34,669 bases of DNA from Marivivens sp. GTDB taxonomy: Bacteria; Pseudomonadota; Alphaproteobacteria; Rhodobacterales; Rhodobacteraceae. The DNA is taken from the NCBI GenBank assembly GCA_024642145.1, contig JAHEBS010000005.1, forward strand, positions 1-34,669. Reading direction: 5' to 3'. This document shows, in pieces, positions 2,756 through 15,613 of the stretch; the stretch's first letter is position 1, and the number at the start of each line of letters is the position of its first letter. The notes below the pieces were generated by a model. It did no database searches and was not told the DNA's origin. It was given only the letters and a program-made list of their open reading frames with translations. The position numbers were made by a program, and so were the translations under genes.

Positions 2756-2784
2756 TTGACCATTCCCCCGCGCTTCACTATCAG
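2756..2784 (+). promoter_or_regulatory. Putative sigma70-type promoter for rplB segment
   Basis: TTGACC (2756-2761), 17-bp spacer, TATCAG (2779-2784). Confidence 0.6.
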
Positions 2785-2966
2785 GCCCCATCTGCCCGGT
2801 CCCGGATTCGTCCGGGGCTGATGTTTTTATGGGGTCGTGATTCGTTGCGGCACCGGAAAAAGGCGGAAATGGCGCGCTGAATGCGCCGTGATCTAATCGG
2901 GGACCTTCGGGGCCCTTCAACGAAGAGCCGGGCTAACGCCCGCAAAGCAACGGAAGACAGAAAAGC

Positions 2967-5828: not shown

Positions 5829-6266
5829 ATGACCTACGCCAAGACCGAAGATGCCATCGCCAAACTGACGCCCGAGCAGTATCGAGTGACCCAGCAAAGC
5901 GGCACCGAGCGGCCCTTTACCGGCGAATACGATCATCATTTCGAGCCGGGTATTTACGTCGATGTGGTTTCCGGCGAGCCGCTCTTTGCCTCGTCGGCCA
6001 AGTTCAATTCGGGCTGCGGCTGGCCTTCGTTTTCCAAGCCGATCGACAATGTGACGGAACATGCTGACACCACCCATGGGATGCGGCGGGTCGAGGTGCG
6101 CTCAAAGCACGGCGACAGCCATCTGGGCCATGTTTTCCCTGACGGCCCGCGCGACATGGGCGGGCTGCGCTACTGCATCAACTCGGCCAGCCTGCGTTTC
6201 GTGCCCAAGGCCGAGATGGAGGCGCAGGGCTATGGCCAGTATCTGGATCAGGTCGAGGGCCGCTGA
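5829..6266 (+). CDS. msrB: Peptide-methionine (R)-S-oxide reductase MsrB
   Basis: [37 protein letters not shown]; strong RBS AAGGAGGGGAGAG. Confidence 0.93.
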
Positions 6267-6318
6267 ACCAACGCAGGGACGCCGAATACCCGCCCATAAA
6301 GACCGCGCATGAAATTGG

Positions 6319-6344
6319 ACCCCTGCCCGAAACGGCAGGGGTTT
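6319..6344. terminator. Hairpin between convergent msrB and RidA-family gene
   Basis: ACCCCTGCC-CGAAAC-GGCAGGGG-TTT. Confidence 0.75.
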
Positions 6345-6356
6345 CCTTGTTCGGGG

Positions 6357-6761
6357 CTACGCCTCGGCAATCACCGCATCGACCTCAATCTCGACCAGCC
6401 ATTCGGGGTTCACAAAACGGTTGATCGCCATGATCGTGTCGACAGGGCGCGCGTCACGACAATAGGCCTTGCGCGCCTCGATGGCCCGTTTCCAATTGTC
6501 GATGTCGGTCAGGATCACCCGTGTGCGGACGATATCGTGCAGGCCGGATCCGGCGGCGATCAGCGCGGCCTCGATGATTTCGAAACAGCGGGTGGTCTGG
6601 GCAAAGACATCGCCGACCCCAACGGTCTTGCCGTTGGTATCGACAGGCGCAGTGCCGCCCACCGCGATGAAGGGCCCGACGCGCACCGCGCGGCTAAAGC
6701 CCACAATTTCCTCCATCGGATTGCCGTTCGAGACCCGTTGGCGGTCCATCTCCATCCGCAT
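6357..6761 (-). CDS. RidA/YjgF family protein
   Basis: VGFSRAVRVGPFIAVGGTAP...VRTRVILTDIDNW...NPEWLVEIEVDAVIAEA. Confidence 0.85.
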   Translation of the reverse strand: MRMEMDRQRVSNGNPMEEIVGFSRAVRVGPFIAVGGTAPVDTNGKTVGVGDVFAQTTRCFEIIEAALIAAGSGLHDIVRTRVILTDIDNWKRAIEARKAYCRDARPVDTIMAINRFVNPEWLVEIEVDAVIAEA

Positions 6762-6811
6762 CTCCCTTTGCCCAGAGGGTCAGGTTAACACGGATTGGCC
6801 GGTCCGTCGCC

Positions 6812-7771
6812 CTAGGCCTGCGCCGCACCCGAGGCATCGGCCAGTTCGCCCGTTACCCAAGTCATGATGAACCGGTAGGTGATCAGCAAGACCAAGGGCG
6901 TCGCTATGGCCAAAGCGCCATAGGTGCCAAATACGGCGGGGGCGCCCAGACCCTTGGCCACGGCCAGCGTCTGCACCAGCAAGAAAGCCGTCGCGGGAAA
7001 GGTAAATGCCGACCACAGCGGCGACCAGCCACCGCGCATCATCCATGGACCCAAGGGGACCAAGGCCAAGGCGATGGCGCAGGATGTCCAGTAAAAGAGG
7101 TGGAACGCCCAGTCGACGTTCAGCAAGCCAAAGCTTGTGGCAAAAAGACAGTTCGGGGCCAGATAGATCGCCAAGGTCGGGCGCAACATCACCGGCAGTC
7201 CGCGACGCAGCGCGCCCAAGGCAAAGCCCAGCGTTATGATCACATAGGGCACCAGTGCTGCGGCTGTCAGCACGCGGCTTTCCCAAAGGTGGCCCAAGGG
7301 GATGCCAGCAATCGGCCCGACGACGGGGCCGACAAAGGTCAGGTATTGAAAGGTGGTAAAGCCGCGCGTTTCACCAGGATCACGCCAGATGGCGTAACAA
7401 CCAATTCCGCTCGCACCGATTTGCAAAATGACACCGGTCCACCACACCGCGGGCACGTGCAGACCAAAGGGCAACAGCGCCGCAGCCAAGAGCATCATCG
7501 ACATGGCCGCGGCGGATAGGCCGGCGCGGGCAGGGGGGCTTTGCACCTCGTCGATCAGCACCGACGGGCGGGCGATGACCTTTCGCAGGTAGAAGGCAAA
7601 GAAATACAGGAAAAACGCCGTGGCAAAGGCCAGCAGCAGATCGCCGATCTCATGCGCCACGGGCAAAACATCGGCCGCATTGCGCCAACCCAGCCCAAGC
7701 CCGAACAACCCCAGACTGACCGGAAAAACCGCAGGCGGGGTGCGCCGCCAGAGGGCCGTCCTGATTTGCAT
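6812..7771 (-). CDS. TDT/SLAC1-like (TehA-related) transporter
   Basis: Multi-TM protein: WRRTPPAVFPVSLGLFGLGLGWRN...YLTFVGPVVGPIAG...APNCLFATSFGLLNVDWAFHLFYW. Confidence 0.75.
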   Translation of the reverse strand: MQIRTALWRRTPPAVFPVSLGLFGLGLGWRNAADVLPVAHEIGDLLLAFATAFFLYFFAFYLRKVIARPSVLIDEVQSPPARAGLSAAAMSMMLLAAALLPFGLHVPAVWWTGVILQIGASGIGCYAIWRDPGETRGFTTFQYLTFVGPVVGPIAGIPLGHLWESRVLTAAALVPYVIITLGFALGALRRGLPVMLRPTLAIYLAPNCLFATSFGLLNVDWAFHLFYWTSCAIALALVPLGPWMMRGGWSPLWSAFTFPATAFLLVQTLAVAKGLGAPAVFGTYGALAIATPLVLLITYRFIMTWVTGELADASGAAQA

Positions 7772-7891: not shown

Positions 7892-7920
7892 TTGCCCTTT
7901 ATGGACCCCTCCCGTATAGG
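7892..7920 (+). promoter_or_regulatory. Putative promoter for rpmC-rpsQ-spc segment
   Basis: TTGCCC (7892-7897), 17-bp spacer, TATAGG (7915-7920). Confidence 0.6.
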
Positions 7921-8035
7921 GTCCCATCTCGCGGATTCCGGGGCGACTCGGGATTCGCTTGTTTGTCATTCATCCACCAGGTCACGGGTGACCCTTCAAC
8001 GGGGGCCTTCTGGTGATGTCGAAAGGAAAAGGCGA

Positions 8036-12023: not shown

Positions 12024-12218
12024 ATGGCAACGAAGAAAACCATCGTGGTCAAGCAGGTCGGTTCGCCGGCTCGCCGCCCCGACGTCCAGCGCCGCACCCT
12101 CATCGGTCTCGGCCTGAACAAGATGCACAAAACCCGTGAGCTCGAGGATACCCCCTCGGTGCGCGGCATGGTCAATGCGATCCCCCACCTTGTGGAGATC
12201 ATCGAAGAGCGCGGCTAA
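12024..12218 (+). CDS. rpmD: 50S ribosomal protein L30
   Basis: [59 protein letters not shown]. Confidence 0.95.
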
Positions 12219-12243
12219 TCCCGCCCTTTGAGACCTGAGATAG

Positions 12244-12273
12244 CGCCCCGGCCCGAAACGGCCGGGGCGTTTT
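12244..12273 (+). terminator. Intrinsic terminator after rpmD
   Basis: CGCCCCGGCC-CGAAAC-GGCCGGGGCG-TTTT. Confidence 0.85.
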
Positions 12274-12280
12274 CGTTTGT

Positions 12281-12775
12281 TCAGATGAACGGATCATAGG
12301 CCCATTGCAGCAGCGCCTGCCGCTGGCGCGGACGGCACCAGATGTCACCTTCGCGGCAATTGGCGCGGATCTGTCCGGCATGGCGGGCAAAGGCGCGCCA
12401 ACGGCGGATCTGGACGGCGTCGGTCTCTGACAGGCGGCGGCCCATCCAATAGCGGCAATACCACTGGAACCAGCCGCGCGGATCGGGGCCGTAAATCCAG
12501 CCCTTTTCGCGCCAGACCGCCAAGGGTTGTCGGCTTTTGATGCCAAAATAGTTGCAGGCGGGGTCGGGGCGGTCCGCGAGACGCGCATTGGCAAACCAGT
12601 CTGCCGGAAACTCGGCACGGCAGTCATTGAGGTATTTGCCTTCAAAGACCCCCATCGCCAGCATCTGTGCGGGCGACAGCTGTGGCGAAAACGCCGGATC
12701 AAAGCCTTCGCCCTGCGACGCCTCGCGCGCGTAGCTGTAATTCTGCTGGTAGTGGTCATTGACGGTGATGATCAT
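12281..12775 (-). CDS. Conserved hypothetical protein (family of unknown function)
   Basis: GVFEGKYLNDCRAEFPADWF...NYFGIKSRQPLAVWREKGWIYGPDPRGWFQWYCRYWMGRR...IWCRPRQRQALLQWAYDPFI; Trp-rich conserved-looking motifs. Confidence 0.75.
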   Translation of the reverse strand: MIITVNDHYQQNYSYAREASQGEGFDPAFSPQLSPAQMLAMGVFEGKYLNDCRAEFPADWFANARLADRPDPACNYFGIKSRQPLAVWREKGWIYGPDPRGWFQWYCRYWMGRRLSETDAVQIRRWRAFARHAGQIRANCREGDIWCRPRQRQALLQWAYDPFI

Positions 12776-12818: not shown

Positions 12819-12847
12819 TTGCGTCACATGGCCCGACCGTCTATAGG
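12819..12847 (+). promoter_or_regulatory. Putative promoter for rplO-secY-adk segment
   Basis: TTGCGT (12819-12824), 17-bp spacer, TATAGG (12842-12847). Confidence 0.55.
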
Positions 12848-12941
12848 CCCACGATGGCCCAAATCATGGGTCAAGAATCATTGATAAGCCGTGTTTGTCC
12901 TTCTGATCGCTCGGAGGGCAGTTCCGGCAAGGAGAAGCGAT

Positions 12942-15549: not shown

Positions 15550-15578
15550 TTGACGATTTGGTGGTCCACCCCTAGACA
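15550..15578 (+). promoter_or_regulatory. Putative alpha-operon promoter (rpsM)
   Basis: TTGACG (15550-15555), 17-bp spacer, TAGACA (15573-15578). Confidence 0.6.
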
Positions 15579-15585
15579 GCCCCAT

Positions 15586-15613
15586 CCCGTAAAGGGAATC
15601 ACGGGTTGATTCC
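15586..15613 (+). promoter_or_regulatory. Pseudoknot-compatible or mutually exclusive pairing in rpsM leader
   Basis: CCCGT (15586-15590) pairs ACGGG (15601-15605); GGAATC (15595-15600) pairs GATTCC (15608-15613); the two pairings interleave. Confidence 0.45.

Follow-up and report, generated by a model that had tools for sequence, protein, structure and literature searches.

Introduction

In the Alphaproteobacteria, most sigma70 promoters have no T at the last position of the -10 element; such promoters are found before translation genes and can be stimulated by CarD (PMC8407463). A CarD-activated promoter class, -7A/C/G, has been described in R. sphaeroides by Myers et al. (2021; PMC8407463), with reference there to Henry et al. 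(2020). In E. coli, GC-rich discriminators go together with unstable open complexes and with inhibition by DksA/ppGpp (PMC7822876, PMC9304144), and clearance of CdnL, a relative of CarD, in the course of the stringent response is reported for Caulobacter (PMC11034885). How scattered ribosomal protein (r-protein) operons are coordinated in the Alphaproteobacteria is little described in the literature that we searched.

We analyzed a 34,669-nucleotide stretch of DNA from a Marivivens sp. (the window), which is one contig (C72) of a 2.65 Mb assembly with 235 contigs and a GC content of 61%; among named genomes, its RplB protein is closest to those of Rhodobacteraceae, with 87-94% identity. A preliminary description of this DNA had proposed that promoters before rplB, rpmC and rpsM share one signature, in which the -10 element is directly followed by the octamer G[CT]CCCATC, and that they might form a coordinated element under stringent control. 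With a probability of roughly 60%, we read these sites as housekeeping-sigma (sigma70) promoters that restart r-protein segments, that belong to a class common to many r-protein operons of the Rhodobacteraceae, and whose output is tuned through CarD together with DksA/ppGpp.

Results

The r-protein cluster of the window is broken by unrelated genes, and independent restart promoters are therefore expected. A DUF2200 gene (2375-2728) lies between rplW and rplB; genes for a SelR methionine sulfoxide reductase and a SLAC1-family channel, along with other open frames, occupy 5829-7771 in the gap from rplP to rpmC; and rplO is preceded by a minus-strand frame (12199-12759) for which a Pfam search returned no match. 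Upon re-reading, the bases, coordinates, 17-bp spacers and -10 sequences that had been quoted for the rplB, rpmC and rpsM promoters proved correct (Table 1). Within the window, the pattern TTG-N20-TA-N4-G[CT]CCCATC had exact matches only there, with r-protein genes downstream of all three, as compared to a mean of 0.00 in 100 dinucleotide-shuffled versions. The same three sites were the only matches in the whole genome (reversed-pattern control, 0), which confirms the three-site signature as real. On both strands the window holds 12 TTG-N20-TA arrangements and 16 CCCATC words, and GYCCCATC occurs only at the three promoters, with ~4.3 occurrences expected by chance. A genome scan in which two mismatches were allowed had no discrimination, with 46 matches vs. 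45 in the control.

Table 1. Positions of promoters and RNA features in the window.
Feature	Position	Strand	Elements	Basis
rplB restart promoter	2756..2792	+	-35 TTGACC 2756-2761; 17-bp spacer; -10 TATCAG 2779-2784; discriminator GCCCC 2785-2789; predicted +1 A 2790	exact match
rpmC restart promoter	7892..7928	+	-35 TTGCCC 7892-7897; -10 TATAGG 7915-7920; discriminator GTCCC 7921-7925; predicted +1 A 7926	exact match
rpsM restart promoter	15550..15586	+	-35 TTGACG 15550-15555; -10 TAGACA 15573-15578; discriminator GCCCC 15579-15583; predicted +1 A 15584	exact match
rplO restart promoter	12819..12855	+	TTGCGT-17-TATAGG/CCCACGAT; GC-rich discriminator, without the CATC type	
Predicted 5'-terminal hairpin of the rpsM transcript	15585..15597	+	TCCC-GTAAA-GGGA	covariation
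L2-Alphaproteobacteria ribosomal protein leader (RF03142)	2899..2963	+		Rfam, 60.5 bits

All five bases directly 3' of the -10 element are G or C in the rplB and rpsM promoters and four of five in that of rpmC, while the second discriminator base is C in rplB, rpsM and rpsF (the last described below) and T in rpmC. Regarding the transcription starts that had been suggested, the one at 7926 falls on an A and can be kept, whereas 2791 and 15585 are each the T that follows the likely start A. Counted from the predicted start A, the leaders are 177 (rplB), 110 (rpmC) and 150 nt (rpsM) long. Orthologous promoters are present in relatives for all three: for rplB, for example, as TTGACC-17-TAAACG followed by ACCCCATCGG; for rpmC as TTGCCC-17-TATAGG followed by GACGCATCC, TATAGG followed by AACCCATCC and similar forms, with several relatives conforming to TTGCC-17-TA, a short discriminator and then CATC; and likewise for rpsM.

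The bases of the rplO promoter are also as previously quoted, and its discriminator is GC-rich, but its description as a looser relative of the signature did not hold: many relatives have a different discriminator and start in this region (12819-12870), TATACG followed by CCCCCGGTGG, which constitutes a separate conserved variant and not the CATC type, and we therefore rejected rplO as a member of the class. The comparison with rRNA promoters comprises one relative, as the search for 16S genes gave no match in this assembly or in most relatives; in that relative the 16S promoter, read by eye, is TTGCGG-17-TAGAAC followed by CCCCCTCACC, which is GC-rich and without CATC.

Elsewhere in the genome, the -10 element plus octamer (TANNNNGYCCCATC) had eight matches (control, 0), half of which are r-protein promoters, including the rplB, rpmC and rpsM sites. 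The fourth of these (C12:8925, minus strand; TTGCAC-18-TATAAG) starts the rpsF-rpsR-rplI operon, which is unlinked to the cluster in the window; no r-protein gene was recognized downstream of the remaining four matches. A relaxed pattern, TTGAC-N17..19-TA-N4..8-CCCATC, likewise had four matches, every one of them before an r-protein operon (rplB, rpsM, rpsL, and rplM). Among 19 additional r-protein and translation genes examined in this genome, a CCCATC promoter was present only at rpsL and rplM, with a close form, GATAAG followed by CCGCCATCC, at rplU; it was absent within the 420 bp examined for rpsB, rplK, rplJ, rpsO, rpsT and others, some of which may be operon-internal or may have their promoter farther upstream.

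We then applied the relaxed pattern to 61 Rhodobacteraceae genomes, one per genus, with the reversed pattern as the control, and classified the DNA downstream of each match with blastx, using proteins of E. coli and of the window as references. This resulted in 55 matches vs. 19 for the control, and 29 of the 55 stand directly before r-protein genes, namely rpsM (12), rplM (9), rplB (5), rpsL (2) and rpsD (1), with the matches of our own genome counted in. One further match precedes ffh, and the other 25, many of them inside reading frames, are near the number that the control predicts. The form RCCCCATC, searched in ten genomes of which most were already known to have a similar rplB promoter, was found before rplB in seven cases and before rpsM in one, each time as a promoter (control, 0). 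The preliminary description would have been refuted by a motif no commoner upstream of translation genes than elsewhere; in this genome as well as across the family the searches showed enrichment there, which gives good support to the idea that translation genes have a coordinated promoter element. The exact octamer is too narrow to serve as its unit; the spacing between the -10 element and CCCATC is not constant, with differences of a few bases from one operon to another, and the motif is present at some r-protein operons only. As a separate observation, a CCCATC-type pattern lies upstream of ffh and of a gene for a putative class A penicillin-binding protein in two relatives, which are possible non-ribosomal members.

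These searches also bear on whether the likeness arose by chance, or by copying of one promoter inside the cluster. The strict pattern was chosen after the three sites had been seen, which speaks for such an origin; the prospective searches, however, hit unlinked operons (rpsF, rpsL, and rplM) and orthologous operons in other genera, and the three sites show no sequence relationship in their spacers or leaders. Given the family-wide matches, this explanation is strongly disfavored, and we consider it extremely improbable.

In order to define the conserved unit, the best -35/-10 pair was chosen blind to the discriminator before rplB, rpsM, rplM, rpsL, rplU, and rpsF in relatives, and the resulting 140 r-protein promoters were compared with a background of promoter-like sites picked likewise in other DNA of the same genomes; this background is imperfectly clean and the orthologues are non-independent, such that p-values from the comparison are indicative only. 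The five bases after the -10 element are 84% GC in the r-protein promoters vs. 69% in the background, and C occupies the second position in 72% vs. 29% and the fifth in 75% vs. 49%. An A stands at position 6 after the -10 element in 44% of the r-protein promoters and at position 7 in 36%, and for CATC within 13 bases the counts are 53 of 140 vs. 10 of 82 background sites. The last base of the -10 element is T in only 7 of the 140, compared to 17 of the 82. The conserved unit is thus a GC-rich discriminator with a C-A start and then T-C, and the octamer seen in the window is its sharpest form.

The same figures can be held against the view that these are strong constitutive promoters, in which a GC-rich discriminator and CATC would give good initiation for this RNA polymerase with CarD, without a special ppGpp response, and would be shared by r-protein operons since all of these need high output. 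A GC-rich genome, in which these five positions already reach 69% GC at background sites, fits such a view, and in a genome of 61% GC a GC-rich discriminator alone is weak evidence for stringent control. The preference for C at the second base and the CATC start are, however, specific, r-protein operons are where the motif is concentrated, and matches elsewhere roughly equal in number those expected from the reversed control; we regard purely constitutive function as rather unlikely.

The start region of rpsM has an additional feature at the RNA level. In the Rhodobacteraceae, the 5' end of the rpsM mRNA is predicted to be A-UCYC-loop-GRGA, in which the stem begins one base past the start A and the loop is often of the GNAA type. 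Across 22 sequences, 95.5% of cells were paired, a value reached by none of 500 shuffles and compared to at most 66% in slid versions, and column pair 9/18 alternates between CG (12) and UA (9). The loop of this genome is one base longer and stands one column off in the alignment. This covarying stem-loop, like the C-A preference at positions 5-7 of the r-protein promoters, indirectly supports the predicted start A, and it means that in the rpsM operon CATC may owe its TC in part to a role in the RNA. CCCATC might be kept mainly for the RNA 5' end (AUC and a small hairpin, for mRNA protection or protein binding), or for a putative DNA-binding factor at the start site. The variable distance between the -10 element and CCCATC is what would be expected of a signal tied to the start site, and the rpsM stem, built from the bases after the A, does covary; against this, the covariation analysis covers rpsM only, the bases past CATC differ between operons, and the GC-rich stretch precedes the predicted start, which would place it outside the RNA. 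We consider this account improbable. A further and, in our view, rather doubtful suggestion is that, in r-protein operons across the Rhodobacteraceae, a C-rich discriminator is fused to a fixed CATC initiator and, in rpsM, to the covarying 5'-terminal mini-hairpin as a compound start signal. If true, a single short stretch would govern, in ribosome genes, the stability of the mRNA 5' end as well as the sensitivity of the promoter to CarD and DksA/ppGpp.

In an Rfam search the L2 leader was the sole match (Table 1); it lies within the rplB 5' UTR just before rplB, as a neighbor of the promoter and no part of it. The rplB leader also contains, in 2785-2835, a hairpin (CCCGGATTCGTCCGGG) that recurs in relatives and, a few bases beyond it, a T run; together they loosely resemble a terminator or attenuator. 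A pairing of GCCCCAT with ATGGGGT in this leader was considered as a shared explanation for the three sites and rejected, as the folds predicted for rpsM and rpmC contain nothing comparable; the predicted fold of the rplB leader is ordinary for its composition (z -1.1).

Discussion

Taken together, these results favor sigma70 promoters tuned through CarD and DksA/ppGpp. The class is described by TTGnnn, a spacer of ~17 bp, TAnnnn usually without a final T, a GC-rich discriminator whose second base is often C, and a C-A start after which TC is common. This architecture is conserved and strongly concentrated at r-protein operons; we infer the start at A, the instability of the open complex, and the responses to CarD and to ppGpp/DksA. 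A weak -10 element combined with a GC-rich discriminator would make the open complex unstable, and we propose that, because of this instability, output would need CarD for activation and would be readily lowered by DksA/ppGpp, such that the operons would be tuned together. Points against this reading are the many r-protein operons of this genome in which no CCCATC promoter was present within the 420 bp examined, the T at the second discriminator base of rpmC, a predicted start 6 bases past the -10 element instead of the 9 of E. coli rrnB P1, and the GC-rich 16S promoter of one relative, which has no CATC.

The regulators that this scheme calls for are encoded in the genome: a CarD protein (contig C142; PF02559, 51.9 bits) that is CarD-like over its full length, a DksA with the DxxDxA motif (contig C103), and a SpoT homologue (Rel/SpoT; contig C172) that is 49% identical to E. 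coli SpoT. In addition to the canonical DksA, the genome has a gene (C142:11737-11829) for another, short zinc-finger protein of the DksA/TraR family. All three promoters in the window have the TTG, the TA, the ~17-bp spacing and the lack of a final -10 T of the CarD class; the missing T, which the preliminary description overlooked, points to CarD. Stringent (ppGpp/DksA) control of the r-protein promoters, which it did put forward, is plausible from the sequence.

A start signal common to separate r-protein operons would probably allow joint tuning of ribosome production. A family-wide sequence signature makes the question of such coordination testable, and offers a computable predictor of growth-controlled promoters in uncultured Rhodobacteraceae.

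With respect to known systems, the L2-Alphaproteobacteria leader (RF03142) is an RNA element in the transcript leader that arises from the rplB promoter, over 100 nt past the predicted start. The r-protein promoters share a GC-rich discriminator and their genes with the rRNA and r-protein promoters of E. coli that are inhibited by ppGpp/DksA (rrnB P1 and others; Lemke et al., 2011, as cited in the literature consulted), and the C two bases past the -10 element in rplB, rpsM, and rpsF, though not in rpmC, resembles the C-7 of rrnB P1; DksA and a SpoT homologue are present in both settings. In contrast to E. coli, the -10 elements here lack the final T, CarD is present and CATC is fixed, the predicted start lies 5-8 bases after the -10 element as compared to 9 in rrnB P1, and a ppGpp/DksA response is suggested by sequence likeness. 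With the CarD class of R. sphaeroides, the promoters share the TTG of the -35 element, a TAnnnn -10 element without a final T and the association with translation genes. That published class is defined by the -10 element alone, and the word "discriminator" does not occur in the main text of the article (PMC8407463), whereas the r-protein subset described here has a GC-rich discriminator with a CATC start as an extra shared feature. Thus the promoter class itself was already known, and what is new is the shared C-rich start signal (...CCCATC) at r-protein operons.
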